Positions 7,084-45,978 of a stretch of 45,978 nt of DNA are shown piece by piece. The position numbers and the translations under genes are program-made. Origin of the DNA: Clostridiales bacterium (lineage in GTDB: Bacteria > Bacillota > Clostridia > Oscillospirales > Oscillospiraceae); contig JALFUW010000086.1 of NCBI GenBank assembly GCA_022786995.1, forward strand, positions 1 through 45,978, read 5' to 3'. The notes beneath the pieces are model-generated. The model was not told the DNA's origin, did not search any database, and worked only from the letters and a program-made list of their open reading frames with translations. Within the stretch, counting starts at the first letter, position 1, and each line of letters opens with the position of its first letter.

Positions 7084-8913
7084 ATGAAAACAACCGCCAG
7101 CCGCCCCGCCAGCCGCCTCACCATCGGGCTGAATAAGACGAAAACCTTCTTTTCCAAGCCCTATAACGTGATCCTGTTACTGATGGGCATTGTCTTTACC
7201 GTTACCACCGTCGCCCCCATTTTGGCCATCATTCAGGACACCCTGAAAATTCACCCCGGCACCATCGATGCCCACCTGACCGGGCAGGTGTCCGGCTATA
7301 CCCTCGTCAACTACATCGACCTCTTTACCAGCCGGATGGCAAAAACCAACCTGTGGACGCCCCTGCTGAACACCCTCCTGCTGGCAGTGGGCACCTGTAT
7401 CGTGTCCATTCTATTCGGCGGCATTGTGGCTTTCCTCGTCACCCGCACCAACATGGCATGGCGCAAGTACATCAGTTCCATCTTCATTTTCCCCTATATC
7501 ATGCCACAGTGGACGCTGGCCGTGGTGTGGCAGAACCTTTTTAACTCCAACGCCGTCACCGGCACCTCCAACGGTCTTCTCGCAGCCCTGTTCGGCATCG
7601 AGATGCCCATGTGGTGGTGCAAGGGTCTGTTCCCCAGTATGGTGGTGCTGGGCCTGCACTACGCCCCCTTTGCCTACATTCTTATCGGCGGCATTTTCCG
7701 CAACATGGACGCGAACCTTGAGGAAGCCGCCACCATTCTGGACACCCCCAAGTGGAAGATCATGACCCGCATCACCCTGCCCATGGTCAAGCCCGCCATT
7801 CTGTCCACCATTCTGCTGGTCTTCGGCAGTGCCATGGGTTCCTACCCCGTGCCCCATTATCTGGGCCTCAGCACCCTGTCCACCAAGTACGTCTCCATGA
7901 ACTCCAAGTACACCGGCGAAGCTAGCATCCTTGCCATCATCATGATGATCTTCGGCGTGGCCATCATGATGCTGAATCAGCTGTCTCTCACCAGCCGGAA
8001 GAACTACACCACCGTCACCGGCAAATCCGGTCAGATCTCCAAGATCAATCTGGGTAAATCTGGCAAGTACATCATCGCCCTGATTCTGGTGATCCTGACC
8101 TTCTTCACCAGCATTTTTCCCATCGTCTCCTTCGCCTTCGAGACGTTCCTGCCCAACCCCGGCGACTACTCCTTCCTGTACACCGGCGATACCAGCAACC
8201 TGACCACCAAGTGGTGGGTCACCAGCGAAAACGTCACCGAGAACGGTATGTACGGCCAGAAGGGCATCCTCCACAACGAGACCATCTGGCACGCCTTCCG
8301 GGGCACCATCTACGTCAGCGTGTGCTGCGCCCTGCTGGCGGGCACCATCGGCACGCTGGTTGGCTACGCGGTGTCCAAGAACCGGCGAAGTAAATGGGCG
8401 AATTATGTCAACTCAATGGCCTTCCTGCCATACCTGATGCCCTCGCTGGCAGTCGGCGCGGCCTTCTTCATTCTGTTCTCCACGGAGAAGCTGAACCTGT
8501 TTAACACCTACACCCTGCTGATCATCGTGGGCACCATCAAGTACATCCCCTTCGCCAGCCGCAGTTCCCTGAACTCCATGCTGCAGCTGTCCGGCGAGAT
8601 CGAGGAAGCCGCCATCATTCAGGACATCCCATGGATCAAGCGCATGACCCGCATCATCATCCCCATCCAAAAATCCTCCATCATCAGCGGCTACCTGCTA
8701 CCCTTCATGACCTGCCTGCGGGAGTTGAGCCTGTTCATGCTGCTGTGCGTACAGGGCTTCATCCTGTCCACCACGCTGGATTACTTCGATGAAATGGGCC
8801 TGTATGCCTTCTCCAGCGGCATCAACCTGATCCTCATCATCACCATTCTGGTGTGCAACACCCTTGTCAACAAAGTCACCGGCGCAAGCCTGGATAAAGG
8901 AATCGGAGGTTAA
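7084..8913 (+). CDS. ABC transporter permease, two fused domains (FbpB/AfuB type)
   Basis: A 609-residue inner-membrane protein with two BPD_transp_1 permease domains in one chain. Each ends in an EAA-type coupling loop: EEAATILDTPKWKIMTRI in the first half and EEAAIIQDIPWIKRMTRI in the second. About 12 membrane segments are apparent. A hydrophilic loop around residues 355-400 separates the halves. The fused architecture is characteristic of Fe(III)- and sugar-phosphate-type importers. It starts at ATG 7084 behind AAAAGGAGG and is followed after 3 bp by the ATPase gene, so the two are co-translated. Confidence 0.92.
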   Translation: MKTTASRPASRLTIGLNKTKTFFSKPYNVILLLMGIVFTVTTVAPILAIIQDTLKIHPGTIDAHLTGQVSGYTLVNYIDLFTSRMAKTNLWTPLLNTLLLAVGTCIVSILFGGIVAFLVTRTNMAWRKYISSIFIFPYIMPQWTLAVVWQNLFNSNAVTGTSNGLLAALFGIEMPMWWCKGLFPSMVVLGLHYAPFAYILIGGIFRNMDANLEEAATILDTPKWKIMTRITLPMVKPAILSTILLVFGSAMGSYPVPHYLGLSTLSTKYVSMNSKYTGEASILAIIMMIFGVAIMMLNQLSLTSRKNYTTVTGKSGQISKINLGKSGKYIIALILVILTFFTSIFPIVSFAFETFLPNPGDYSFLYTGDTSNLTTKWWVTSENVTENGMYGQKGILHNETIWHAFRGTIYVSVCCALLAGTIGTLVGYAVSKNRRSKWANYVNSMAFLPYLMPSLAVGAAFFILFSTEKLNLFNTYTLLIIVGTIKYIPFASRSSLNSMLQLSGEIEEAAIIQDIPWIKRMTRIIIPIQKSSIISGYLLPFMTCLRELSLFMLLCVQGFILSTTLDYFDEMGLYAFSSGINLILIITILVCNTLVNKVTGASLDKGIGG

Positions 8914-8916
8914 ATC

Positions 8917-10539
8917 ATGCCTGAAATCAGATTAGAGCATATCACCAAGCGCTGGGGCAAGTTCTATGGTGTGGACGACCTGAATCTGGTCATTGAAAAT
9001 AACGCGTTTGTCACCCTGCTGGGCCCCTCCGGCTGCGGCAAGACCACCACCCTGCGGATGATCGCGGGGCTGGAGACACCCACTAGCGGACGCATCACCA
9101 TCGGCGACACGGTGGTATTCGACAGTGAGCTGGGCATCAACATCCCCGCCAACAAGCGGAAGGTAGGCTTCCTCTTCCAGAACTATGCCCTGTGGCCCAA
9201 CATGACCGTCTACCAGAATATTTCCTTCGGCCTGTCAAACATCAAGGAGGAAATGCCAAAGATCAGCTTTGAGGCGAAAAACGCCGCCCGTCTGGCCCAG
9301 ATCCTCAAAAATCCTCAGGATGTGGTAAAGACTCTTGAGGAATGCCGGGATAAAAACGGCAAGCTGGACGAAAAGAAGGCAATCATCAAGCTGATCGATA
9401 CCTACACCATCTCCCAGTACACTGCCAAAAAGCTGTTCGGCTATCATTTGGAGCAGGGTAAGGACGTGTCCGCCGAGGTAAAGGCTCTGGAAGAAAAGGT
9501 GGAAGCCGCCCGAAAGGCTCAGCCTTTCAACGAGAACTTTGAGCTTCTCAAGGACGGCAAGGTGGAAACCGCTGTGCGCAAGCTGACCAAAGAAGAGATC
9601 GACCTGTCCGTGCGCCGGGTGTCCCGCATCGTCAAAATCAGTATGTTCATGGACCGCTATCCCGCGGAGCTGTCCGGCGGTCAGCAGCAGCGTGTGGCAA
9701 TTGCCCGGACCCTGGCTCCTGAACCCAGCGTGCTGTTCATGGACGAGCCGCTTTCCAATCTGGATGCCAAACTGCGTCTGGAAATGCGCTATGAATTGCA
9801 GCGGCTCCATGTGGAGACTGGCTCCACCTTCGTCTACGTCACCCACGATCAGATGGAGGCCATGACCCTGGCAACGCAGATCTGCCTGATGAACAACGGT
9901 GTCCTTCAGCAGTATGCCGCGCCGCTGGAAGTTTACAATCACCCTGCCAATCTTTTTGCGGCAGACTTCGTTGGCAACCCCTCTATCAATTTCGTGGAGG
10001 CCAAGGGCTGGCAGGGGCCTGAGGGCAGCATTGAGCTGACGCTGCTGGACGGACACAAGGCAGTTTTCACCCCCGAGCAGCCATTGCAGCTGCCCCAGTG
10101 GTTCCACCGGCGGGACGAGGAGCTGGAAGCCCAGGCGCAGGCTCTGAAGGCCCGTGCGGGAGAGAGCGGCTACGTGGAAAAGAGCAACAAGGACGAGACC
10201 TTCCGCTACCACATCGCCAGAGTCAACGACGAGGACGACGGCATCCACGAGGAGCCGGTGCTCACCAACGAGGATCTGGTGCTGGGTATCCGCCCGGAGT
10301 TCCTGTCCATCACCGGCGGCGGAAATGTGGAGTGCGAGATTTACGGTGCCATGCCCACCGGCATGGAATCCACCGTCAAGGTGCGCATCGGAGAGTATTT
10401 GCTCACCGGCGTGGTCTTCGGCAGCACCCTGTTTACCATCGGAAGCAAACACCTGCTGGATATCACCGGCAGCAGCGTGATGCTCTTTGACCGGTCAAGC
10501 GGCCGGCGCATCACCTCCGGCACCCTGAAGCTGCTGTGA
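8917..10539 (+). CDS. ABC transporter ATP-binding protein with large helical insertion
   Basis: A 540-residue ATPase of the MalK/FbpC family. Walker A GPSGCGKTT is at 36-44, the Q-loop Q88, signature LSGGQ at 252-256, Walker B LFMDEP at 273-278 and the switch H310. A C-terminal TOBE-type regulatory domain follows (about 350-540). In family members about 45-60 residues separate the Q-loop from the signature motif. Here about 160 do, because of a charged helical insertion at roughly 110-228. All catalytic motifs are intact, so the protein should hydrolyse ATP for the permease encoded just upstream. The C-terminal domain is also expanded, with a highly charged stretch near 404-450. The stop overlaps the next start (GTGA). 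Confidence 0.92.
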   Translation: MPEIRLEHITKRWGKFYGVDDLNLVIENNAFVTLLGPSGCGKTTTLRMIAGLETPTSGRITIGDTVVFDSELGINIPANKRKVGFLFQNYALWPNMTVYQNISFGLSNIKEEMPKISFEAKNAARLAQILKNPQDVVKTLEECRDKNGKLDEKKAIIKLIDTYTISQYTAKKLFGYHLEQGKDVSAEVKALEEKVEAARKAQPFNENFELLKDGKVETAVRKLTKEEIDLSVRRVSRIVKISMFMDRYPAELSGGQQQRVAIARTLAPEPSVLFMDEPLSNLDAKLRLEMRYELQRLHVETGSTFVYVTHDQMEAMTLATQICLMNNGVLQQYAAPLEVYNHPANLFAADFVGNPSINFVEAKGWQGPEGSIELTLLDGHKAVFTPEQPLQLPQWFHRRDEELEAQAQALKARAGESGYVEKSNKDETFRYHIARVNDEDDGIHEEPVLTNEDLVLGIRPEFLSITGGGNVECEIYGAMPTGMESTVKVRIGEYLLTGVVFGSTLFTIGSKHLLDITGSSVMLFDRSSGRRITSGTLKLL

Positions 10540-11186
10540 TCCGGGGACTGTTATTCGATCTGGATGGAGTGCTGGTCAACACCAACCCCCTCCACGCCCG
10601 GGCGTGGCAGGAGCTTGCCGAAGAATTGGGAATTCCCTTCACTCCGGCAGACCAAGAGGCCTTTCTGGGCATCAGCCGGGCACAGTGCCTGGAAATTCTG
10701 CTGAAAAAGGGAAACCGCTCCCTTTCGGAATCGGAAAAAGAGAGGCTGTGCACCCGGAAAAATGACCGCTACCGGGAGATGATTGGCACTTTGACCCCGG
10801 CGGCGCTGCTGCCGGGCGTGTCGGAATTCTTACGCGCTGCCCGGGCCGAGGGATACCGGACAGCTCTTGGCAGTGTCAGCAAAAATGCGGAGTTTGTCCT
10901 GAAAAAGCTGGAAATTACGGCGTTTTTTGACGCCGTCATCGACGGCACGAGAATTGTAAACGGCAAGCCCAACCCGGAGGTGTTCCTCAAAGGAGCGGAG
11001 GCTCTGGGACTCCCACCTGAGCAGTGCCTGGTTTTCGAGGACTCAGCCGCAGGTATCGAGGCCGCCCACCGGGGCGGAATGAAAGCCATCGGCATCGGAA
11101 CGGCCCGGCTGCTCCCGTCGGCAGAGCTGACCATCCCAGGCTTCTCCGGCGTAATGCCGGACGCGCTTCTGGCGCAGTTGCTATAA
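10536..11186 (+). CDS. pgmB: HAD-superfamily phosphatase / beta-phosphoglucomutase-like
   Basis: A 216-residue HAD hydrolase. Motif I is DLDGVLVNT, with nucleophile D8 and acid D10. Motif II lies in the GSVSKN segment, the motif III Lys in NGKPNPEVF and the motif IV acidic pair in VFEDSAAGIEAA. The alpha-helical cap (about 16-85) is of the beta-phosphoglucomutase type. It starts at GTG 10536, overlapping the ATPase stop, so translation is coupled to the transporter. In this family the enzyme interconverts beta-glucose 1- and 6-phosphates or dephosphorylates sugar phosphates. Its place at the end of an Afu/Fbp-type operon is consistent with import of a phosphorylated sugar, which is inference. 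Substrate choice cannot be read here. Confidence 0.85.
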   Translation: MIRGLLFDLDGVLVNTNPLHARAWQELAEELGIPFTPADQEAFLGISRAQCLEILLKKGNRSLSESEKERLCTRKNDRYREMIGTLTPAALLPGVSEFLRAARAEGYRTALGSVSKNAEFVLKKLEITAFFDAVIDGTRIVNGKPNPEVFLKGAEALGLPPEQCLVFEDSAAGIEAAHRGGMKAIGIGTARLLPSAELTIPGFSGVMPDALLAQLL

Positions 11187-11332
11187 CACTTTTATCAGAT
11201 TGATACCGTGTATCGGGGAACCTCTGAACAGTTCTGTTTCGGCTGGACAGCGACTCTTTAGTCCCAGCTGTGCAGCTCAAAAAATGGGAAAAATATTCGC
11301 ATTTTCATACTGACTTTCATTCGTGAGGATGG

Positions 11333-11371
11333 AAATATTACTGTGAAAGCTCCGCATTCACAGTAATATTT
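11333..11371. repeat. Perfect 15-bp hairpin downstream of the HAD gene
   Basis: AAATATTACTGTGAA (11333-11347) is exactly inverted at 11357-11371 with a 9-nt loop. There is no T run after it. A second nested structure follows at about 11381-11417, with outer arms CAGCAC/GTGCTG and inner arms GCCCC/GGGGC. These lie between the HAD operon and the relaxase remnant and may belong to the mobile element. Confidence 0.6.
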
Positions 11372-11485
11372 CAAACAAATGCCAGCACCTCGCCCCTTGC
11401 GGGGCAACCTGTGCTGATGCATATAAATTCCAATACGCCAAAGTCTTTCATAAATGGTAGCGCACTGCGAAAGCGCATGGGAATT

Positions 11486-11552
11486 TAATATGAAGATCAT
11501 AAAGCGACGGGTATCCATGATTTTTCATTCCGAAAATTACGGATGCCAGATT
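11486..11552 (+). repeat. Left-end inverted-repeat motif, copy 2 (partner at 15-75)
   Basis: The 16 bases 11486-11501 are identical to 15-30. They are followed by an imperfect inverted repeat (about 11510-11526 with 11532-11547) in the same position as the perfect one at 40-75. With the matching right ends (800-994 and 11898-12089), this indicates two remnants of one element family. Confidence 0.6.
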
Positions 11553-11871
11553 GGAACAGGAGCATGCCGAAACCTATGCCCAGTTCAAATCCATCCGGGA
11601 GGATTCTCAGCAGCTTTGGAAAATTAAGGCAACACCGCATAATGGGGCAAGGAGATTCGGCGTGAGATTTTGACCCAAGCGAAAGTATGGAAAATGCGGA
11701 AATACTGGATGTATTTCCCATTTTTCATACTGCACGATTGGGGCAAAAGATCCGCCGAAGCCCGCAGCTCCCATTGTGCGGTGTTGCCTTAAATTCTATG
11801 TGGACTCTGCCCGCAAGAATTTTGAACAGGCGCAGCAGCACACATCTCCAAAACAGGAACAGGGAATCTGA
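11527..11871 (+). pseudogene. C-terminal remnant of a probable MobA/MobL-type relaxase, interrupted by a MITE
   Basis: The frame opens after a TGA just before 11527. It reads a charged helical relaxase-like C-terminus (LEQEHAETYAQFKSIREDSQ) up to about 11627, where the MITE begins. After the MITE it resumes as FYVDSARKNFEQAQQHTSPK and stops at 11869-11871. Removing the MITE with one TTAA copy joins the halves exactly in frame as WKIKFYVD. The stop is followed at once by the element's terminator. The relaxase assignment rests on the style of the sequence and its neighbours and is not certain. The N-terminal catalytic domain is missing. Confidence 0.55.
11628..11788. mobile_element. 161-bp palindromic MITE with TTAA target duplication
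   Basis: The terminal inverted repeats are about 19 bp with one mismatch (GGCAACACCGCA at the left, its complement at the right). TTAA flanks both ends (11624-11627 and 11789-11792). The interior is itself a long imperfect palindrome folding about 11705, so the whole element can form one hairpin. It has no coding capacity. Precise removal with one TTAA restores the interrupted reading frame, which identifies it as an insertion and fixes its borders. Confidence 0.85.
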
Positions 11872-35924: not shown

Positions 35925-36474
35925 ATGACAGAGCTGGAAATCATGCAGCGGGCGAAGATGTATATGGACAAGCTGGCCCAGGGAATTGACCCGATTTCGG
36001 ATCAGGAGATGCCCGAGGACTCCGTGCTGAACAATGTCCGGCTGGCGAGATGCTTTTTCTATGTGTCCGGGGTGTTGGATCAGGTCATTGCGTGCGGCGG
36101 CAATGTGAAGAAAACGCCAAAGAAAGACTTCTTATGTTACAGAGGAAGAACTGTGCCGTGTGGCTGTGTCGCAGGAGCCGATTCGGATCACGCAGTTTGT
36201 TGACCGCATAATGGACGTGATCAACGACCCGGATCGGAAGAAGCTGAAGACAACAACGATTACCGATTGGCTGATTGAAAAAGGCTTTATGTCGAAACAG
36301 ACGGACGCGGACGGAAAGTCCAAACGCCTTCCAACGGCTATGGGGGAGCAGATCGGACTGACCGTCAAACTCCGGGAAGGACAGTACGGAACCTATCAGG
36401 TGGTCTGCTATTCCGAGGATGCCCAGCGGTTCCTGCTGGATCATTTGCAGGAGATGTTGCAGGCAGAAAAGTAG
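35925..36474 (+). pseudogene. Hypothetical accessory gene broken by a frameshift near 36130
   Basis: Two overlapping frames make one protein. The first gives MTELEIMQRAKMYMDKLAQG to KKTPKKDF. The second continues VTEEELCRVAVSQEPIRITQ to the C-terminus QEMLQAEK at 36474. The join around 36130-36136 needs one base less (or two more), and no slippery heptamer is evident, so mutation or sequencing error is more likely than programmed frameshifting. The product would be about 180 residues, helical and charged. It lies directly after the SEC-C gene. The family is not recognised beyond that. Confidence 0.72.
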
Positions 36475-36496
36475 CGGTACGGATGTGAATAAGGAC

Positions 36497-36531
36497 AAGC
36501 CCGGCAGGTGATTGACACTTGCCGGGCTTGA
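36497..36531 (+). terminator. Strong hairpin closing the accessory operon
   Basis: 14-bp stem (36497-36510 with 36516-36529, one G-T pair) with AAGCCCGGCA arms and a 5-nt loop, 22 bp after the last stop. The stretch 36532-36754 beyond it has no supported gene. Confidence 0.8.
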
Positions 36532-36754
36532 ATGCTGTATGGATGGCTGCTGAACTTTTGCTTTTGCATCTCTATTTGGTTTTTGTGTATTATCATCAAG
36601 GGTTCTGTTCTTGCCAATCTCAGACAGTACGTCCAAAATGTAGGTCTTACCCTGAAATCCGATGCGGGAAGAATGAATTTTATCTGATTATACCCGATTT
36701 ATTGGACATATTGTGTGCTATTTTCACCACAAGGATAGCAAGAACAGCAGAAGA

Positions 36755-36836
36755 GGGGCAGAGCCTTCACCCTGCCCGTCTGACTGCCATCACTTTTTTT
36801 GTTACTATTTCAATCCACAGACCCTGGGTGTCTGAC
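36755..36836 (-). ncRNA. Candidate CreR-like crRNA: degenerate repeat, pseudo-spacer, hairpin
   Basis: On the minus strand, 36836-36807 is a 30-nt CRISPR-repeat-like sequence. It starts GTC and ends in GTGGATTGAAAT, identical to the last 12 bases of the array repeats, while the stem is replaced by AGAC/GTCT. A 22-nt pseudo-spacer follows (36806-36785), then a second GTCAGAC-led segment with an 8-bp hairpin (about 36778-36755). A promoter lies exactly upstream (36871-36843). The pseudo-spacer matches 36900-36879 in the cas3 upstream region. By analogy with CreR RNAs, it would guide Cascade to its own promoter without cleavage. The match is seen; expression and function are inferred. Confidence 0.72.
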
Positions 36837-36842
36837 AGGTAC

Positions 36843-36871
36843 AGTATGGCATAGTACATAAAAAATGTCAA
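36843..36871 (-). promoter_or_regulatory. Promoter of the crRNA-like element
   Basis: On the minus strand TTGACA (36871-36866), 17-bp spacer, CATACT (36848-36843). The expected start, 6-8 nt downstream, falls on the first bases of the degenerate repeat at 36836. Confidence 0.7.
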
Positions 36872-36878
36872 GAAAATT

Positions 36879-36900
36879 TGTTATCACTATTTTTATTACT
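36879..36900 (-). promoter_or_regulatory. Target site matched by the pseudo-spacer, in the cas3 upstream region
   Basis: On the minus strand this site agrees with the pseudo-spacer at 18 of 22 positions, starting at spacer position 1. The mismatches are at 6, 12, 19 and 20. The three bases 5' of the protospacer are CTT rather than the canonical I-C TTC. The site lies between the divergent crRNA-like and cas promoters. Confidence 0.7.
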
Positions 36901-36913
36901 AAGCGTCAAGAGA

Positions 36914-36942
36914 TTGAATCTCATCGAATTATGTGATATGCT
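36914..36942 (+). promoter_or_regulatory. Likely promoter of the cas operon
   Basis: TTGAAT (36914-36919), 17-bp spacer, TATGCT (36937-36942), about 45 bp before the cas3 start. A second -10-like TATACT (36944-36949) lacks a matching -35. Confidence 0.6.
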
Positions 36943-36988
36943 TTATACTGTAACAAAAATAACGATTCGGCGAAAGCAGGTGGTGCGT

Positions 36989-39388
36989 ATGCACATGGCA
37001 CACATACGGGAGGATGGAAAAATCCAAACTGCGGCAGAGCACTCCCGCAGTGCCGCAGAATTTGCGGCCAAATCCCTGAGACCCATTGGCATGGGGACAA
37101 CGGCGTTCCTTGCGGCGCTGCTCCATGATTTTGGCAAATTCAAGGAGGAATATGACCGCTATCTGGAAGAGGCCGTAGCGGGTACGGCTGTGCGGGGAAG
37201 TGTCAATCATACCTTCGCAGGAGTTCGATTTGTTCTGGAGCAATGGCACAGCAGCGACGGGATAGGCTATGATGAGGTTACGGCGGAGCTGCTGGCCTAT
37301 GCCATCGGTGCCCACCACGGCTTATTTGACTGTATGGACGCCCGGCAGAACAGCGGCTTTCAGCACCGGCAGAAAAAAGAGGGGATCGGCTATGCGGAAG
37401 CCCGCAGTGACTATCTGGAACAGTGCGCGGATTTGGAAGAGCTGAACTTGCTTTTTCGTGAATCTGTTCAGGAGACAACCGTGCTGCTGATTCAGATGGC
37501 CTCATTATCCCAGCAGCAGGATGACGAGGAGGCCAACCGGGAAACCGCGTTTTATGTCGGTCTTCTCCAGCGAATGCTGCTGTCGGCTGTGATTGAGGGA
37601 GATCGCAGAGACACGGCGCAGTTCATGAACGCAGATGCGTTCCCAAAGTGGCCGGAGGATATGCGAGGCATCTGGGCAGACCGCCTTGCTTTTATGGAAC
37701 AAAAACTTGGCACGCTTCCACGGGAGCAGCCAATCGATCAGGCACGGCACACAATCTCAGACACCTGTGCCTCCTTCGCCCGCCAGTCGGGAGGCGTTTG
37801 TCGGCTAAATGTTCCCACCGGCGGCGGAAAGACGCTTTCCGCTCTGCGGTTCGCATTGACTCACGCGAAACAGTGGAACAAAACCCGGATTATTTTTACA
37901 TCTCCGCTGCTTTCCATACTGGATCAGAATGCCGGGATTCTACGCCGTTTCATTGGCGATGATTCCCTGATTCTGGAGCACCATTCCAATTTGGCAGAGC
38001 CGGAAAACAAACCTGAGCGACTGCGGGAATTGGAACTTCTGACGGACACATGGGAAGCACCGGTGATCATTACAACGCTGGTTCAACTGCTGAATACCTG
38101 CTTTTCCGGGAAAACCAGTGCAATCCGTCGATTCCATTCTCTGTGTAACAGCATTATCATCCTGGATGAGGTTCAGACGGTACCGAATAAAATGCTGACG
38201 CTTTTTAATCTGACGGTGAATTTTCTGTCAGAGATATGCGGCGCGACGATTGTGCTCTGCTCTGCCACCCAGCCGAGTCTGGAAAAAGTGCAGCATCCGC
38301 TGAAGTGTACGCCCCCGGAGATGGTTCCCTGGCAGGGGACGCTGTGGAGCGTATTCAAGCGAACGGAAATACAAAACGCGGGACAATATCGGTTGCACGA
38401 GATTCCACAGCTGATTGAGCAGGTGCTGTCCGATTGTGACAGTTTGCTGGTGGTGTGCAACCGAAAGGACGAAGCGGCGTTTCTGCTGGAGGAGCTGCGG
38501 AATGCACCCTGTCGGCGCTTCCACCTGTCTGCGGCAATGTGTCAGTCGCATCGTCAAGAAACCCTGCATTCGCTACAGGCCGCTTTGGAGACAGCTCGTT
38601 CCGGCGGTGAGAAGGTGCTCTGTATTTCTACGCAGGTAATTGAGGCAGGCGTGGACATTTCCTTCCAGCAGGTCATCCGGCTTGCCGCCGGAATGGACAG
38701 CGTGGTTCAGGCGGCCGGACGGTGCAACCGGCACGCGGAATCCCGGAAGCCCGCCCCGGTTCGGATTGTGCTGTGCGCCGATGAACGATTGGAATACCTG
38801 GAGGATATTGACCGGGGGAAAAAAGCGACAGTGTCTCTGCTGAGTGCTTTTGCGGATCACCCGGAATGGTTCCAGAATGACTTGTCCGGGCAGAAGGCCA
38901 TCGGATTTTATTATCATCAGCTGTACGGCTCCATGAATCCGGGTTATCAGGATGATGTAATCCCGGAATACGGCTCTGTCTACCGGCTTCTTGCGGACAA
39001 TCCCAAATTTGCGAATGCGCAATGCCCGATGGCGGCGCGTTATTACCTGCGCCAGGCCTTTCAGCTTGCGGGCAAGCTGTTTCAGGTGTTTGATGAGAAC
39101 ACCACGGACATCCTCGTCCCCTACGGGAAAGGCCGGGATATTCGGGAATATCTGATTTCTGCCGCCAAAACATATGGAGAACGGGATTGGCAGACCATCC
39201 GCAGGAATATCAACGAGGCAAAAAAGTATTCCGTATCCGTCTACCAGCATCAGTTTGCGCAGCTGGAAAAACTGGGAGCGGTCATGCCTCTGTTTGAGGA
39301 CAGTGTCTATGTTCTGTCCGATGGGTTTTACGATGAGAATATTGGCCTTTCCATTCAGAAAGGTAAAACAGGCTTTCAGGGGGTGTAA
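36989..39388 (+). CDS. cas3: CRISPR-associated nuclease/helicase Cas3 (type I-C)
   Basis: A 799-residue effector nuclease that unwinds and degrades DNA recognised by Cascade. The N-terminal HD nuclease domain has H18, the pair H46-D47 with GK (LLHDFGK) and H109-H110. The superfamily 2 helicase follows, with Walker A PTGGGKT (276-282), DEVQ box (393-396), the motif III-like CSATQPS and a C-terminal helicase half (QAAGRCNRH). ATG 36989 has AGGTGG 5 nt upstream; the longer upstream frame runs through the regulatory region and is not supported. It is the first gene of the operon, followed after 2 bp by cas5. Confidence 0.95.
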   Translation: MHMAHIREDGKIQTAAEHSRSAAEFAAKSLRPIGMGTTAFLAALLHDFGKFKEEYDRYLEEAVAGTAVRGSVNHTFAGVRFVLEQWHSSDGIGYDEVTAELLAYAIGAHHGLFDCMDARQNSGFQHRQKKEGIGYAEARSDYLEQCADLEELNLLFRESVQETTVLLIQMASLSQQQDDEEANRETAFYVGLLQRMLLSAVIEGDRRDTAQFMNADAFPKWPEDMRGIWADRLAFMEQKLGTLPREQPIDQARHTISDTCASFARQSGGVCRLNVPTGGGKTLSALRFALTHAKQWNKTRIIFTSPLLSILDQNAGILRRFIGDDSLILEHHSNLAEPENKPERLRELELLTDTWEAPVIITTLVQLLNTCFSGKTSAIRRFHSLCNSIIILDEVQTVPNKMLTLFNLTVNFLSEICGATIVLCSATQPSLEKVQHPLKCTPPEMVPWQGTLWSVFKRTEIQNAGQYRLHEIPQLIEQVLSDCDSLLVVCNRKDEAAFLLEELRNAPCRRFHLSAAMCQSHRQETLHSLQAALETARSGGEKVLCISTQVIEAGVDISFQQVIRLAAGMDSVVQAAGRCNRHAESRKPAPVRIVLCADERLEYLEDIDRGKKATVSLLSAFADHPEWFQNDLSGQKAIGFYYHQLYGSMNPGYQDDVIPEYGSVYRLLADNPKFANAQCPMAARYYLRQAFQLAGKLFQVFDENTTDILVPYGKGRDIREYLISAAKTYGERDWQTIRRNINEAKKYSVSVYQHQFAQLEKLGAVMPLFEDSVYVLSDGFYDENIGLSIQKGKTGFQGV

Positions 39389-39390
39389 TT

Positions 39391-40122
39391 TTGAAAACGA
39401 AGTATCCGAATATTGTGGAATTTCAGGTAACCGGCGAGTATGCGTTGTTTTCCGATCCCATTATGCGGCTGGGCGGAGAAAAATGCAGCTACCAGATACC
39501 GACCTATGAGGCACTGAAGGGCATTTTGTCGTCTGTGTACTGGAAGCCTACGCTGATCTGGCGGATTCTGGATGTGCGGATCATGAATCCCATCCAGACC
39601 GAGGTCAAGGGGATTCGCCCCATCAAATACGGCGGCGGCAATGACCTTGCTTACTATACATACCTGAAAAACTGCCGCTATCAGGTTCGTGCCTGCTTTG
39701 ACTGGAACGACAACCGCCCGGAACTGGCTCAGGATCGGAACGAAAACAAGCACCATCAAATCGCGCTGCGAATGATTGAAAAAGGCGGGCGACGGGATGT
39801 TTTCCTGGGAACCAGAGAGTGTCAGGGGTATGTGGAGCCCTGCGTATTCGGAAGCGGAAAGGGCGCCTATGACGATCTGCCGGAGCTGAGTTTTGGCCTG
39901 ATGTATCATGGAATCACCTACCCCGATGAAGCCTATTCCGAGCAGACAAAGGGGCGGATGACTGCCAGATTCTGGTATCCCGTTATGAAAAACGGAATCA
40001 TTCATTTTTTGCCGCCGGAACAGTGCCCGGGGCAGAAACCGCTGCGGGCAATGGAAATGAAGTCATTTTCCACTGATCTGGGGAATTTCAGCGGCCTCAG
40101 GGAATTTGGGGAGGTGGAGTGA
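39391..40122 (+). CDS. cas5: Cas5d (Cas5c), pre-crRNA endonuclease and Cascade subunit
   Basis: A 243-residue RAMP protein of the I-C type. The early FQVTGEYALFSDPIMRLGGE motif and IPTYEALKGILSSVYWKP segment are typical of the Cas5 N-terminal ferredoxin fold. In type I-C there is no Cas6. Cas5d cuts each repeat transcript just below the hairpin and stays on the 5' handle, which here ends in GGATTGAAAT. The start codon appears to be TTG 39391 with GGGGGTG about 5 nt upstream. It ends directly against cas8c. Confidence 0.94.
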   Translation: MKTKYPNIVEFQVTGEYALFSDPIMRLGGEKCSYQIPTYEALKGILSSVYWKPTLIWRILDVRIMNPIQTEVKGIRPIKYGGGNDLAYYTYLKNCRYQVRACFDWNDNRPELAQDRNENKHHQIALRMIEKGGRRDVFLGTRECQGYVEPCVFGSGKGAYDDLPELSFGLMYHGITYPDEAYSEQTKGRMTARFWYPVMKNGIIHFLPPEQCPGQKPLRAMEMKSFSTDLGNFSGLREFGEVE

Positions 40123-41928
40123 ATGGGTCTGATGAAGCAGGCGTACGAAACCTACTGCGCTCTGGAGAAGAAATACGCCGGCAGATATTGCGATGAAATG
40201 AAGGAGCCGCTGGTGCCGGTGTCCCACCAGATTGCCAACGCGGATATTGAAATCACCCTGAATGCAGACGGAAAGCTGCTGAACGCTGCCATGATGGACA
40301 AGGCTCACGCTGCTGTCATCATTCCTGTGACGGAGCTGTCGGCAGGAAGGACGGGAGATACTTCCTGCGCGCACCCCCTGTGCGACCAGATTCGCTTCCT
40401 GACACCCCTGTATCCGGAAAAATACGCGGCATATCTGACACAGCTTCACGCATGGGAAAATTCCGCTTTTCAGCACCCAAAGCTCCATGCAGTTGCGCGG
40501 TATGTTGAAAAAGGAACCGTTCTGGATGATTTGGAGCAATTTGGTCTGATTGCGCGAAACGACGACGGACTTCCCGTGAAAGAAAAGCAGATGGTGTGCT
40601 GGCGGGTGGAATCCGGCATCAGCGGTGAGATGCCGGAATGCTGGAAGGACAGAACGCTGTTTCAGTCATTTATCGATTACTATGCTTCCACGCAGGACAG
40701 GGAAACAGCGTTTTGCATGGTGTCGGGTCAATGCGCCGCCCTTGCTAGTCAACACCCCAAGAAAATCGTTACAGCCAACGGAAACGCCAACGCAAAATTG
40801 ATTTCCGCAAATGATTCCAGCGGATTTACCTATCGCGGCAGGTTTACGGACGACAAGCAGGCTGTAACCGTCAGCTACGACGCCTCGCAGAAGGCGCACA
40901 ACGCGCTGCGCTGGCTTGCAGCCAATCAGGGCGTCAATCTTGGCGGAAGAACCTTTCTGTGCTGGAATCCTCATGGAGTTGCCCTGCCGGAGATCAGTGT
41001 GCCGTTTATGCGAAGAAGCGCAGAAAGGCAAATTCAGTATTCCGACTATCGGAAAGCGTTGGCAGAAACCCTGATCGGATGGCAGGAGCGGATTCCGGCG
41101 GACACGGAAGCAGTGATCGCGGCCTTTGATGCTGCCACCTCCGGGCGGCTCTCGCTGACCTACTACGGCGAGCTGATGGTCTCGGACTTTCTGGAACGGC
41201 TTCACGACTGGGACGCGATCTGCTGCTGGTGGAACGGACCCTATGGGATTCAGTCTCCGCACCTTTACCAAATTGTCGGCTGCGCGTTTGGAACGCTTCG
41301 GATTTCCAAAAATCAGGCGCAGTTTGAGACGGACGACAGAGTGATGCGCCAGCAGATTCAGCGTCTGATTTCCTGCCGCGTGGACAGGGGAAAAATGCCG
41401 TCGGACATTGCCCGGGCGGTGATGGCAAGGGCATCCAATTTACAAATCATCCCGGAAGCCGGAACGCGGGAGAAGGTACTGTTCACGGCCTGCGCGGTGC
41501 TTCGGAAATATCACTATGACAGGAATCAGGAGGAATGGAATATGGCATTGGAACCAGAGAAACGAGACATCAGTTACCAGTACGGACGGCTTCTCGCGGT
41601 GTTTGAGAAGATTGAGAAGGACACCTATGACAACGAGAACAGGGAAACCACAGCGATTCGGATGCAGGCTGTATTCGCCAAACGCCCCCGGTACGCCAGC
41701 CGTATCATCTGGGAGCAGCTGAAAAAGGCATATTATCCCAGACTCAGAGCTTCCAGCAAGGCGTTTTATGATCGTTTGATCGGAGAAATTATCAACGAGA
41801 TTTCGGAATGCCCCGGAAACGCTCAGGAGAGTGCCTTGCAGGATACTTACCTGTTTGGCTACTATTTACAGAAAAATGAGCTTTACCGCTCCAAAACCGA
41901 AGAAATGAATCAGGAGGAAGAAGTATGA
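40123..41928 (+). CDS. cas8c: Cas8c (Csd1), large subunit of type I-C Cascade
   Basis: A 601-residue large subunit that recognises the PAM and opens target DNA. The N-terminus (MGLMKQAYETYCALEKKYAG), the WRVESGI segment and the ALRWLAANQG motif are characteristic of Csd1 proteins. In type I-C an internal start within cas8c commonly yields the small subunit Cas11c from its 3' part. A candidate internal ATG with AGGAGGA at 41525-41543 begins MALEPEKRDISYQYGRLLAVF and would give a product of about 129 residues. That fits known Cas11c placement. The start ATG 40123 follows AGGTGGAG. The last 4 bases overlap cas7. Confidence 0.94.
   Translation: MGLMKQAYETYCALEKKYAGRYCDEMKEPLVPVSHQIANADIEITLNADGKLLNAAMMDKAHAAVIIPVTELSAGRTGDTSCAHPLCDQIRFLTPLYPEKYAAYLTQLHAWENSAFQHPKLHAVARYVEKGTVLDDLEQFGLIARNDDGLPVKEKQMVCWRVESGISGEMPECWKDRTLFQSFIDYYASTQDRETAFCMVSGQCAALASQHPKKIVTANGNANAKLISANDSSGFTYRGRFTDDKQAVTVSYDASQKAHNALRWLAANQGVNLGGRTFLCWNPHGVALPEISVPFMRRSAERQIQYSDYRKALAETLIGWQERIPADTEAVIAAFDAATSGRLSLTYYGELMVSDFLERLHDWDAICCWWNGPYGIQSPHLYQIVGCAFGTLRISKNQAQFETDDRVMRQQIQRLISCRVDRGKMPSDIARAVMARASNLQIIPEAGTREKVLFTACAVLRKYHYDRNQEEWNMALEPEKRDISYQYGRLLAVFEKIEKDTYDNENRETTAIRMQAVFAKRPRYASRIIWEQLKKAYYPRLRASSKAFYDRLIGEIINEISECPGNAQESALQDTYLFGYYLQKNELYRSKTEEMNQEEEV
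41542..41928 (+). CDS. Possible internally initiated small subunit Cas11c
   Basis: Same frame as cas8c. ATG 41542 is preceded by AGGAGG (41527-41532), with about 9 nt between it and the start. The product would be about 128 residues of helical, charged character, matching the size of Cas11c, which several type I-C systems make by internal translation. The ribosome-binding site is stronger than chance would suggest inside a coding region. Confidence 0.6.
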   Translation: MALEPEKRDISYQYGRLLAVFEKIEKDTYDNENRETTAIRMQAVFAKRPRYASRIIWEQLKKAYYPRLRASSKAFYDRLIGEIINEISECPGNAQESALQDTYLFGYYLQKNELYRSKTEEMNQEEEV

Positions 41929-42773
41929 GAACCTTACAGAACAAAATCGACTTTGTGGCACTGGTCAGTGTCAACCGCGCCAACAGCAACGGCGATCCCC
42001 TGAGCGGCAATCGTCCCCGGACGGATTCGGATGGCTACGGCGAAATCTCGGATGTGTGCATCAAGCGGAAAATCCGCAACCGAATGCAGGATCTGGGGCA
42101 CTCCATTTTTGTCCAGTCGGAGGATCGGTGCGATGACGGCTTCGGCAGCCTCAGCGAGCGGGCATCCGCGGCCATGAAGGGCATCAAGGATCGGGAGGCG
42201 TACGCCGCCCATGCCTGTGAAACCTGGCTGGATGTCCGCACCTTCGGACAGGTGTTTGCTTTTAAGGATGCAAAGGGCGTATCTGTGGGCGTTCGGGGGC
42301 CGGTATCCATCCATCAGGCGTCCAGTATCTCTACGGTGGACATCGAGTCTATTCAGATTACCAAGAGTGTGAATGGCGAGAAGAAGGGTAAGGACGAAAA
42401 TCGAGCCTCTGATACCATGGGCATGAAGCACTTCGTCCGTTTTGGCCTTTATGAAATCAAAGGCTCCATCAATGTCCAACTGGCGGAGAAAACCGGTTTT
42501 ACCGAGGAAGATGCGGAAACGGTCAAGGAATGTCTGAGAACCCTGTTTGTAAACGATGCATCTTCCGCCCGACCTGACGGATCCATGGAGGTGGTAAAGC
42601 TGTTCTGGTGGAAGCATAATTGCAAGGATGGGCAGTATTCTTCCGCAAAGGTACATCGTTCCGTTAAAATTGCCCTGAAGGATGACAGCAGGATTCCTCA
42701 GAGCGTGGAGGACTATGCCATCACCCTGGAACCCCTTGCCGGCCTGGAACCTGAAATCATCGATGGATTATAA
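41925..42773 (+). CDS. cas7: Cas7 (Csd2), backbone subunit of type I-C Cascade
   Basis: A 282-residue Cas7 family RAMP protein that polymerises along the crRNA spacer. NKIDFVALVSVNRANSNGDPLSGN at the N-terminus, CIKRKIRNR and DVRTFGQVFAF are signatures of Csd2. Six or seven copies are expected per Cascade and flip out every sixth base of the guide. That is relevant to the pseudo-spacer match upstream of cas3. It overlaps cas8c as ATGA and its 3' end overlaps cas4 by 11 bp. Confidence 0.95.
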   Translation: MRTLQNKIDFVALVSVNRANSNGDPLSGNRPRTDSDGYGEISDVCIKRKIRNRMQDLGHSIFVQSEDRCDDGFGSLSERASAAMKGIKDREAYAAHACETWLDVRTFGQVFAFKDAKGVSVGVRGPVSIHQASSISTVDIESIQITKSVNGEKKGKDENRASDTMGMKHFVRFGLYEIKGSINVQLAEKTGFTEEDAETVKECLRTLFVNDASSARPDGSMEVVKLFWWKHNCKDGQYSSAKVHRSVKIALKDDSRIPQSVEDYAITLEPLAGLEPEIIDGL

Positions 42774-43425
42774 GGAAGAGGACTTCCTCCAGCTGTCCGG
42801 TTTACAGCATTTCAAGTTTTGCAGGCGTAGATGGGCACTGATTCACATTGAGCATCAGTGGGCGGAAAATTATCGAACCATTGACGGCGCAATTCTGCAC
42901 CAAAATGCCCACGACACGGCGTTTCAGGAAAGCCGGGGTGACCGACTTATCACCCGTGGGGTGAGCATCTATTCCGCAGAGCTGGGGGTATCCGGGCAAT
43001 GTGATGTTCTGGAATATCATCGGGGAAGCACAGGAATCCCACTGCCCGGGAAGGACGGTCTTTGGCAGCCCTACCCGGTGGAGTATAAGCGGGGCAAGCC
43101 CCGGGAGGATACCGGGGACGCCCTTCAGCTGTGCGGACAGGCCATGTGTCTGGAAACCATGCTGTGCTGTGAGATTTCGGAGGGCGCGCTGTATTATGGC
43201 GAAATTCGGCGGCGAGAGCGGGTTGCCTTTACCCCGGAGCTGCGCGCGCAGGTCAGGCAGTTGCTTGCGCAGATGCACGATCTCTATCAGCGGGGCTACA
43301 CCCCCAAGGTAAAGCCTGCGAAAAGCTGCAACGCCTGCTCCATGAAGGAGCTATGTCTGCCGAAGCTGATGAAAAACCGATCTGTGACGGCCTATCTTAA
43401 AGCCGCAATGGAGGATGCGCCATGA
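42763..43425 (+). CDS. cas4: Cas4 exonuclease
   Basis: A 220-residue RecB-family nuclease that trims and orients new spacers by PAM together with Cas1-Cas2. One iron-sulfur Cys is at C20 (HFKFCRRRW) and the other three in the C-terminal CNACSMKELC. The nuclease core includes SGQCDVLEYH and PVEYKRGKP with the QxxxY-like QLCGQAMCLE motif. ATG 42763 lies inside the end of cas7, and its stop overlaps the cas1 start (ATGA), so the adaptation genes are translationally chained. Confidence 0.95.
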   Translation: MDYKEEDFLQLSGLQHFKFCRRRWALIHIEHQWAENYRTIDGAILHQNAHDTAFQESRGDRLITRGVSIYSAELGVSGQCDVLEYHRGSTGIPLPGKDGLWQPYPVEYKRGKPREDTGDALQLCGQAMCLETMLCCEISEGALYYGEIRRRERVAFTPELRAQVRQLLAQMHDLYQRGYTPKVKPAKSCNACSMKELCLPKLMKNRSVTAYLKAAMEDAP

Positions 43426-44453
43426 AGCAGCTTCTGAACACTCTGTTTGTCACCTCTGAGGACATTTACCTGTCGCTGGAGGGGGAAAATGTGCTGGCAA
43501 ACCGGGACAGGGAAGTGATTGCCCGGTATCCCTTGCATACCCTGCAAACCATCGTCAGCTTCTCCTATTCCGGGGCGTCCCCGGCCCTGATGGGAGCCTG
43601 CGCCGAGAAGGGAATCGGGCTGGCATTCTGCACACCAAGAGGAAGGTTTCTGGCGCGGGTCTGCGGGGAAAGCAGCGGAAATGTCCTGCTGCGCCGGGAA
43701 CAATACCGAATTGCCGATGACAGCCAACGAAGCTGCGCCATTGCCAGAACCATGATCTTTGGAAAACTCAGCAACTGTGCCGCAAGCGTTCAACGGACGC
43801 TGCGGGATCATGCCCTGAGGGTAACAGATAACGGTCTGGAGGAGGCTGTCCGGCAAATCAAAGAGCTGCTTCCTCAGGCTCTGTCGGTTTCGGAGCTGGA
43901 TACCCTGAGAGGACTTGAGGGGGTTGGTGCAGCGGCTTATTTCGGTGTGTTTGACCATCTGCTGCTGAATCGGAAGGAGGATTTCTTTTTCCATGGACGC
44001 AACCGGCGGCCGCCTCTTGACCGGGTGAATGCCATGCTGTCCTTTGCCTACAGCCTTTTGGCACATGACTGCGCCAGTGCGCTGGAAAGCGTTGGGCTGG
44101 ATGCCTATGTGGGATTTCTTCACCGGGATCGTCCCGGACGGGAATCTCTGGCACTGGATTTGATGGAGGAGCTGCGTCCCTGCATGGCAGATCGGTTCGT
44201 GCTGACTTTGGTCAACAACCGCATGATCCGCCCGGAAGACTTTCAAGTTCAGGACAGCGGAGCCGTGCTGCTCACCGATGACGGAAGAAAGAAATTCTTG
44301 AAGGCATGGCAGGAGCGGAAGCGAGACACCCTGACACACCCGTACCTGAACGAGAAAATGAGCTGGGGGCTGATTCCCTATGTTCAGGCACTGTTGCTTG
44401 CACGGTATCTCAGAGGAGATCTGGACGCTTACCCACCTTTTTTGTGGAAATGA
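43422..44453 (+). CDS. cas1: Cas1 integrase (type I-C)
   Basis: A 343-residue integrase that inserts new spacers at the leader end of the array. Metal ligands E166 (LRGLEGVGAAAYFG), H234 (GFLHRDRPGR) and D246 (ESLALDLMEE) are all present. The N-terminal beta-domain and helical C-terminal domain are of normal length. It starts in the cas4 stop and is followed by cas2 after 4 bp. Nothing suggests loss of function. Confidence 0.96.
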   Translation: MKQLLNTLFVTSEDIYLSLEGENVLANRDREVIARYPLHTLQTIVSFSYSGASPALMGACAEKGIGLAFCTPRGRFLARVCGESSGNVLLRREQYRIADDSQRSCAIARTMIFGKLSNCAASVQRTLRDHALRVTDNGLEEAVRQIKELLPQALSVSELDTLRGLEGVGAAAYFGVFDHLLLNRKEDFFFHGRNRRPPLDRVNAMLSFAYSLLAHDCASALESVGLDAYVGFLHRDRPGRESLALDLMEELRPCMADRFVLTLVNNRMIRPEDFQVQDSGAVLLTDDGRKKFLKAWQERKRDTLTHPYLNEKMSWGLIPYVQALLLARYLRGDLDAYPPFLWK

Positions 44454-44457
44454 AGAT

Positions 44458-44748
44458 ATGCTGGTATTGATTACTTACGATGTAAATACAGAAGATGCCG
44501 CCGGAAGAAAGCGTCTGCGGCAAATCGCTAAGAAATGTGTGGATTATGGGCAGCGGGTGCAGAACTCAGTCTTCGAGTGCCTGTTGGATGCCGGACAATG
44601 CCGCAGCTTGCAGGCAAAGCTGGTATCTATCATGGACCCGGAAAAGGACAGCCTGCGTTTCTACTATCTGGGAAACCAATATGAAAAGAAGGTGGAGCAC
44701 TTTGGTTGTAAAACCACTTATCTGCCGGAGGAGACCCTGATTTTGTAG
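44458..44748 (+). CDS. cas2: Cas2
   Basis: A 96-residue ferredoxin-fold protein that joins two Cas1 dimers in the adaptation complex. It opens MLVLITYDVNTEDAAGRKRL, with the conserved Asp8 at the end of the first strand, and carries YGQRVQNSVFEC. ATG 44458 was chosen over the longer frame beginning inside cas1. It is the last gene of the operon, 170 bp before the first repeat. Confidence 0.95.
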   Translation: MLVLITYDVNTEDAAGRKRLRQIAKKCVDYGQRVQNSVFECLLDAGQCRSLQAKLVSIMDPEKDSLRFYYLGNQYEKKVEHFGCKTTYLPEETLIL

Positions 44749-44917: not shown

Positions 44918-45978
44918 GTCGCTCCCCCCACGGGGAGCGTGGATTGAAATCACCGTGGAAGCGAAGACCGCCAACGAAATCAAGAGTCGCTCCCCCCACG
45001 GGGAGCGTGGATTGAAATAATGACAAAGACAGGGCTGTTATAATAAACACGAGTCGCTCCCCCCACGGGGAGCGTGGATTGAAATTTTCAAGGGAGCTTT
45101 TCTCATCATTGACAAGCGGTCGCTCCCCCCACGGGGAGCGTGGATTGAAATCGTCGTCTCGTCCCGGATTTCCGTGTACAGTTCAGTCGCTCCCCCCACG
45201 GGGAGCGTGGATTGAAATATAATCAGTTCGTCAAATGCGGATGTGGTCCACAGTCGCTCCCCCCACGGGGAGCGTGGATTGAAATATCCTCGGAAGCACC
45301 GGCAGCGCCGCGGGCCTCCGTCGCTCCCCCCACGGGGAGCGTGGATTGAAATGGTGAAATGCCTGTATATAAGCACCAGTTGTACGGACGCTCCCCCCAC
45401 GGGGAGCGTGGATTGAAATAAGAACACCACTATCAGCCATAATACCAGAACCAGTCGCTCCCCCCACGGGGAGCGTGGATTGAAATCTGAAAATGAGTTT
45501 CAACATTTCTATCCATTAAAGTCGCTCCCCCCACGGGGAGCGTGGATTGAAATACTTTTCGCCCGGAAGCCGCCCGCCGCCGTCTGTGTCGCTCCCCCCA
45601 CGGGGAGCGTGGATTGAAATAATTTTATGGCTAAGTCTGAAAAAGGAGACTGGGTCGCTCCCCCCACGGGGAGCGTGGATTGAAATAACGGTTTTCTTAA
45701 AAAGTAGGGGTGTGGGGGCGGTCGCTCCCCCCACGGGGAGCGTGGATTGAAATTTATAATATTTTCGCGTGAATGTCTCGATAGCAAAGTCGCTCCCCCC
45801 ACGGGGAGCGTGGATTGAAATCGTCATGCTGGAATCTCCCCGAATCTGCCCCCAGGTCGCTCCCCCCACGGGGAGCGTGGATTGAAATTGTAGATTTGGT
45901 GGTAGAGAATTAAGTTTATACTGGTCGCTCCCCCCACGGGGAGCGTGGATTGAAATAATTCTGATTGATGACCTTGAT
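44918..45978 (+). CRISPR. Type I-C CRISPR array, at least 16 repeats, incomplete at window end
   Basis: Sixteen 33-bp repeats (GTCGCTCCCC...GTGGATTGAAAT, hairpin GCTCCCC/GGGGAGC) start at 44918, 44986, 45053, 45119, 45186, 45253, 45320, 45387, 45454, 45521, 45588, 45654, 45721, 45789, 45856 and 45924. Spacers are 33-35 bp and all different. Fifteen are complete and the sixteenth runs off the window. All repeats look identical except the eighth, where position 2 is A instead of T. The orientation is leader-proximal at cas2, as expected. No spacer obviously matches elsewhere in the window. Confidence 0.97.

Follow-up and report, generated by a model that had tools for sequence, protein, structure and literature searches.

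A putative CreR-like single-repeat guide RNA beside the cas genes in type I-C CRISPR-Cas loci of Bacillota

The type I-C locus

The window (the whole stretch of DNA that was analysed, 45,978 nucleotides) contains a complete type I-C operon on its plus strand. The operon consists of cas3 (36989..39388), cas5c (39391..40122), cas8c (40123..41928), cas7 (41925..42773), cas4 (42682..43425), cas1c (43422..44453) and cas2 (44380..44748), all of them above the NCBIfam cut-offs. The frames of cas4 and cas2 are given as in the list of open reading frames, and their true starts may be later. An array search found a CRISPR array of 16 repeats GTCGCTCCCCCCACGGGGAGCGTGGATTGAAAT on the same strand at 44918..45978, i.e., up to the window end. 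Two short frames lie just upstream (36160-36474 on the plus strand and 36085-36636 on the minus strand); neither has an NCBIfam match.

The cas3 promoter was read on the plus strand as TTGAAT (36914-36919), 17 bases and TATGCT (36937-36942) with TG before it. This reading is based on an alignment with TTGAAA-17-TATACT of a close relative, L007. The site is weak by consensus and below the threshold of the promoter scan, and a simple promoter search over 34 loci chose another site as the cas3 promoter of the window.

The lone repeat and its guide

On the minus strand upstream of cas3 there is a lone degenerate repeat, GTCAGACACCCAGGGTCTGTGGATTGAAAT (36836-36807). The initial annotation of this DNA had claimed that the remnant keeps the exact last 12 bases of the array repeat, and indeed its final 12 bases are identical to those of the 16 array repeats. 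The last 11 bases, TGGATTGAAAT (36817-36807), are the same as the handle of the array repeat; 11 bases is the handle length of type I-C crRNAs. The Cas5c cut is expected between 36818 and 36817. A 5-bp stem (CAGAC/GTCTG) stands immediately 5' of the handle, and of the 13 bases 5' of the handle, six agree with the array repeat.

The remnant is followed on the same strand by a putative guide. Its positions 1-17 occupy 36806-36790, and the longer pseudo-spacer extends to 36785. The 22 bases 3' of the remnant are identical to 36900-36879 (minus strand), upstream of cas3, at 18 positions, with mismatches at positions 6, 12, 19 and 20. When type I Cascade pairs its guide with a target, each sixth base of the duplex is flipped out by Cas7. 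We refer to positions 1-5, 7-11 and 13-17 of the guide as read positions. All 15 of them match the target of the 17-base guide (36900-36884, minus strand), which leaves mismatches only at positions 6 and 12. The PAM side (36903-36901, minus strand) is CTT here and TTC in the close relatives L006 and L007.

Neither 5,000 dinucleotide shuffles of the 152 bases at 36837-36988 nor 5,000 shuffles of the pseudo-spacer produced an identity of 18/22; the best shuffle over both sets gave 17. The second-best place for the pseudo-spacer in the whole window has 16/22. The initial annotation had described both this 18/22 match and the pairing of the seed positions, and both descriptions stand.

The handle together with the first guide bases has one exact copy in the window's genome, which is 89% complete. 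Of the repeat sequence, GTCAGAC alone recurs 3' of the guide (at 36784), and a hairpin is predicted at this place across the family of elements; a mini-array with an intact second repeat was therefore rejected. An Rfam search of 36700-37000 gave no family match, the one hit being at chance level (E 0.21; 19 bits, where the gathering score is 100). Neither the window's exact handle-plus-guide pattern nor relatives of Cas3 were found in viral contigs.

Predicted promoter and fold of the guide RNA

A promoter scan predicted a minus-strand promoter for the guide RNA with the -35 hexamer TTGACA (36871-36866) and the -10 hexamer CATACT (36848-36843), the latter with TG before it and at a spacing of 17 bases. 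L006 and L007 have TTGACT at the place of the -35 hexamer and the same -10 hexamer. From the promoter-like TTGACA-17-CATACT at 36871-36843, the start of transcription is predicted at about 36836, which is the first base of the repeat. A 3' hairpin is predicted at 36791-36743 (minus strand). Its place is terminator-like; it has no good T-run, and a terminator scan of the window listed no terminator there.

In the fold prediction, the 97-nt RNA forms a short repeat hairpin, then leaves guide positions 1-15 single-stranded, and then forms a long hairpin (-35.5 kcal/mol, z -2.70, with 1 of 200 shuffles as good). The repeat stem of the window alone is no more stable than that of shuffles (z 0.38).

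Guides and targets in close relatives

The same locus is present on two MAG contigs, designated L006 (JALFAD010000011.1, Cas3 90%) and L007 (JALFLH010000023.1, Cas3 88%). The sequence around the L006 element is also found in G030, a genome of the window's genus. The guides of both relatives differ from the guide of the window, and their targets have changed along with them: all 15 read positions match the target in L006, with mismatches at 6 and 12, and in L007, with a mismatch at 12, and both targets lie beside TTC. The initial annotation had proposed to look in related genomes for co-variation of the pseudo-spacer and its target; it is found in both relatives.

The target with its PAM lies about 10 bases from the -35 of cas3 as read in the window, versus 2 bases in L006 and L007. 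The longer distance is due to an insertion between the target and the cas3 promoter, which amounts to 9 bases relative to L006 and 8 relative to L007.

Survey of type I-C loci

We searched further type I-C loci with a fixed rule. An antisense element had to lie on the minus strand and to have at least 9 of the 11 bases of the locus's own repeat handle. Its guide had to match a target at no fewer than 13 of the 15 positions 1-5, 7-11 and 13-17, with TTC, TTT, CTC or CTT as a PAM. The target had to be located from 450 bases before to 60 bases after the start of cas3 or cas5 (or just after cas3 if cas5 was unmapped). Candidates whose guide contained an N were discarded.

The first set includes 109 oriented I-C loci. 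These are the window, L006, L007, 20 loci from the window's family (the best 20 of 66 non-own places in a Cas3 search of 300 genomes of the family), six plasmid loci (L059-L064, from six of nine plasmid records) and 80 loci from the order (80 of 82 new places in a Cas8c search of 394 genomes of the order). The second set includes 80 of 99 new places, mostly the higher-scoring ones, from a Cas8c search throughout the phylum (Bacillota). The rule was fixed after viewing the first set and was then applied to the second set with an enlarged map of cas3 and cas5. A related locus, L008, was left out of the element comparison, since it has no match for positions 36512-37540 of the window.

By this rule, antisense elements are present in 34 of the 109 loci of the first set and in four of the 80 further Bacillota loci, all four with TTC; both sets together give 38 of 189. 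Shuffled guides gave no element in 20 runs on either set. Forty permuted handles that agree with the common handle at no more than 5 of 11 positions, applied to the 189 loci, gave zero loci in 38 runs and one locus in two. An earlier control with 60 unscreened permutations of the handle averaged 0.78 loci and reached 24 at most, the latter presumably through a permutation close to the true handle. A match of at least 13/15 was reached by 49 of 460 candidates (both strands) versus 69 of 4,311 candidates of 12 unscreened permuted handles. Self-targeting array spacers were rejected as the source of the pattern, since only 2 of 4,222 array spacers have a target such as the rule describes. For loci with an element whose array handle is unlike GTGGATTGAAA, the handle of the element fits the locus's own array better in four cases of four.

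The 38 elements are spread over 11 families (the family of L007 not counted), seven of which belong to the window's order. The low rate elsewhere in the phylum, four of 80 loci, suggests that the element characterizes one order more than type I-C systems in general.

A stem of at least 4 bp that ends at the expected Cas5 cut was found in 31 of the 38 elements, in 24 different sequences. The mean repeat stem over the family is 4.2 bp versus 2.1 bp in shuffles. Guide positions 28-35 have a mean pairing of 0.87-0.95 in 34 elements versus 0.57-0.64 in shuffles.

Five loci are below the threshold, at 12/15 with an allowed PAM (L042, L059, L064, L117 and L140). Among them L117, with TTC and a place before cas5, may carry a real element. 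On the sense strand the same criteria gave five more putative elements near cas3 (L106, L173, L191, L206 and L207) among 595 candidates. The L106 candidate (about 1450-1485, with its target at 1662) lies before cas3; its repeat closely resembles that of the array, and its guide matches a TTC-flanked site at 14 of 15 positions. It could be a young element.

Guide-target pairing across the family

Over the 38 pairs, guide positions 1-5 match the target in 37, 38, 38, 38 and 38 pairs, positions 7-11 in 38, 36, 36, 36 and 38 pairs, and positions 13-17 in 37, 35, 37, 33 and 23 pairs. Position 6 matches in 8 pairs, and positions 12, 18 and 19 match in 7 pairs each. Identity at positions 6, 12 and 18 is at the level of chance, and positions 6 and 12 played no role in selection by the rule; the initial annotation had taken these two to be unread, and the family agrees with it. 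The match fades at position 17, before the third flipped base.

As a check on selection, targets were also chosen with one block omitted and with no nearby gene required. The block omitted from selection still matches, with per-position frequencies of 0.93-0.96 for positions 1-5 (n=28), 0.92-1.0 for positions 7-11 (n=26) and 0.97, 0.87, 0.93, 0.77 and 0.53 for positions 13-17 (n=30). Positions 6 and 12 remain at 0.15-0.31 in this check, and position 18 likewise stays at the level of chance. Guides match their own targets at 14.2 of 15 positions on average versus 5.5 for crossed pairs. The 34 guides of the first set are mostly unrelated to each other, as 5 of 561 pairs share at least 13 of 17 positions. 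The PAM is TTC in 28 of the 38 pairs, TTT in seven, CTT in two (including the window) and CTC in one.

With three matched blocks of five bases and with positions 6, 12 and 18 free, the family thus carries the footprint of reading by Cascade, a pattern that is not expected of an antisense RNA or of a relic.

Of the 38 targets, 25 precede cas5, 12 precede cas3 and one directly follows cas3, nearness to cas3 or cas5 being a part of the rule. The target is on the minus strand in 32 pairs and on the plus strand in six. In a simple promoter search over 34 loci, some targets are located a few bases 5' of the best -35, and others cover the -10 or come directly after it. The gap between cas3 and cas5 is 243-1009 bases in the 25 loci that have the element there, and its median is 56.5 bases in loci without an element (n=140). 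Among loci in which the rule finds no element, 17 have a gap of 245-1135 bases and may hold diverged elements or other inserts.

Proposed function and alternative explanations

We propose that the single repeat and the 17-base guide make up a CreR-like RNA, which through type I-C Cascade would repress its own cas operon without triggering Cas3; we put the probability of this at about 0.87. The initial annotation had suggested CreR-like autorepression in a type I-C system, and the suggestion gains support from the co-variation in L006 and L007 and from the 34 of 109 and four of 80 loci with an element, against none with shuffled guides.

The mechanism would be as follows. The element would be transcribed away from cas3, from its predicted promoter, and Cas5c would cut the transcript below the short stem. 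The processed RNA would join the type I-C Cascade, which would then pair with some 17 bases of the cas promoter or fewer; judging by general knowledge of type I systems, these are probably too few for an attack by Cas3. Bound Cascade would keep RNA polymerase off the cas promoter, and more Cascade would mean more repression. Array crRNAs or anti-CRISPR proteins that sequester Cascade would lift the repression. We infer each of these steps, i.e., transcription, cutting, loading, binding, repression and relief, from the sequence. With CTT on the PAM side of the window's target, repression may be weaker there than in the relatives. This PAM side and the insertion of 8-9 bases leave the strength of the window's copy uncertain. 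Further points that weigh against the proposal are the weak cas3 promoter of the window, the fixing of the rule on the first set with only four of 80 loci in the second, the window's repeat stem with a stability no greater than that of shuffles, and the handle of L025, for which there is no matching target.

Three other explanations have to be weighed. The guide RNA might load Cascade and nevertheless serve mainly as a sink for it, or limit its own divergent promoter. Indeed, the -35 of the guide's own promoter starts 12 bases past the PAM-distal end of the 17-base target, and full-length Cascade on the target of the window would likely reach it. However, a sink does not need a matched target at all. 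The targets, moreover, stand before cas5 or cas3 (25 and 12 of 38, with one after cas3, although nearness is a part of the rule), and many are over or beside a promoter-like site of a cas gene. We regard such a main use as improbable. Still less probable is an ordinary antisense RNA that pairs with the leader of the cas mRNA without Cascade. The 32 of 38 targets on the minus strand would suit it, because the corresponding guides are complementary to the sense of the cas mRNA, but the other six targets are on the plus strand, and in the window, L006 and L007 the target is upstream of the cas3 promoter as read. Mismatches at every sixth base and a TTC or TTT PAM are not features of antisense pairing either.

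The degenerate repeat, with its 6/13 match before the handle in the window, could also be what is left of a decayed and functionless array, the guide matching by chance. This is the least probable explanation, as none of the two sets of 5,000 shuffles reached 18/22, guides and targets co-vary in relatives, stems differ in sequence and yet stay paired, and the promoter-like site is kept in L006 and L007.

Beyond the window, it is likely, though somewhat less so than the CreR-like reading itself, that one clade of Bacillota uses dedicated single-repeat guide RNAs, with a role in regulation and not in immunity, to control its type I-C systems. In these guides, positions 1-5, 7-11 and 13-17 would be held matched to the locus's own cas3 or cas5 promoter, and positions 6, 12 and 18 would drift freely. 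If this is true, RNA-guided self-control of CRISPR systems extends to subtype I-C. The family would also be a natural record of the way in which type I-C Cascade reads its target and of the shortest match that can hold a promoter without calling Cas3; the 34 mostly unrelated pairs of the first set are a natural experiment that shows which guide positions Cascade reads. The element would explain the cas3-cas5 gap of 243-1009 bases in the 25 loci. Two predictions follow: type I-C immunity would be buffered against changes in crRNA supply and against anti-CRISPR proteins, and much shorter guides could suffice for type I-C repression tools.

Relation to known systems

CreR RNAs are cas-regulating RNAs of mini-CRISPRs, and passages of PMC13131331 report them for types I-B, I-E and V-A. 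According to a passage in a review (PMC12737573), their repression is lifted when crRNAs or anti-CRISPR proteins take Cascade away. Three features of CreR are found here: a degenerate repeat in a crRNA-like element beside cas genes, a partial match of the guide to the cas promoter region, and genes for the cognate effector complex, which is the repressor (a predicted one in our case). The differences from these descriptions are the subtype, I-C, where Cas5c stands in for Cas6; a single repeat followed by a hairpin, with no evident second repeat; and a 17-base guide in three five-base blocks directed to a cas3 or cas5 promoter, where repression is a matter of prediction.

Other relatives of the element differ more. 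CreA of CreTA, as described in parts of PMC9458426, has degenerate repeats, a partial match to a promoter and, in haloarchaea, a TTC PAM, and it uses Cascade as a repressor. The I-C family shares the repeats, the partial promoter match and the TTC PAM (CTT in the window), but CreA silences the gene of a toxin RNA, whereas the promoter matched by the I-C elements belongs to cas3 or cas5. Racr, a phage-encoded RNA anti-CRISPR presented in a portion of PMC10651486, likewise has a solitary repeat, but it is a viral decoy, whereas the element described here is chromosomal, is located beside a complete I-C operon and has a matched target in its own cas region.

The likeness extends beyond type I. 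In scaRNA/Cas9 and in the tracrRNA-based autorepression of type II-A, a short guide turns the effector into a transcriptional repressor. The effector is used in the same manner there, but these are type II systems with a single-protein effector; scaRNA is also treated in a section of PMC9458426.

The ability of type I-C Cascade to repress is documented in PMC10865793. The Cascade of Neisseria lactamica without Cas3 is a working repressor, and a TTC-PAM guide over the -10 lowered the transcript about tenfold. In this engineered CRISPRi both TTC and TTT served as a PAM, and in E. coli a single repeat with its spacer was enough, no second repeat being needed. It thus resembles the proposed element in the repressor, the PAM and the single repeat with a spacer, and differs in being man-made, with a full-length spacer and with Cas3 omitted. 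In the structure of type I-C Cascade, according to passages of PMC7684278, the 5' handle of the crRNA is clamped between Cas5c and one Cas7, and there is no stem-loop at its 3' end. A kept handle in a repeat that otherwise drifts would be in line with this clamp. The same passages call I-C one of the most prevalent subtypes.

Among the matches listed in our literature search, titles and abstract starts contained no I-C case of CreR. The terms "type I-C" and CreR came together in one review only among these matches, in two mutually unrelated passages. A survey of CRISPR-derived RNA regulatory elements is said to have assigned most crRNA-like elements to type I, and I-C cases may be among them. 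Within the literature as searched, what would be new relative to CreR is the subtype I-C, Cas5c, one repeat with a hairpin, and the two places in the operon.

Observations on other loci

Locus L025 (G147) has a lone handle GTGGATAGAAAC 223 bases before cas3, similar to the one at the same place in L026; no matching target is within reach of it.

The I-C locus L008 (JAQXPK010000075.1, 9275-11534) is related to that of the window and is broken. It shares the window's sequence up to 36511 and has no match for 36512-37540, which holds the element, the promoter and the start of cas3, or for 38590-39403, the rest of cas3; cas5c follows directly.

None of the six plasmid I-C loci L059-L064 has an antisense element by the rule. 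On two of them, from Lysinibacillus plasmids (L062 and L063, about 8165-11578), cas5c, cas8c and cas7c are listed without cas3, cas4, cas1 and cas2 in the gene table of PLSDB, which is incomplete, and the repeats after cas7c differ from copy to copy. These loci possibly encode a nuclease-less type I-C Cascade on plasmids.
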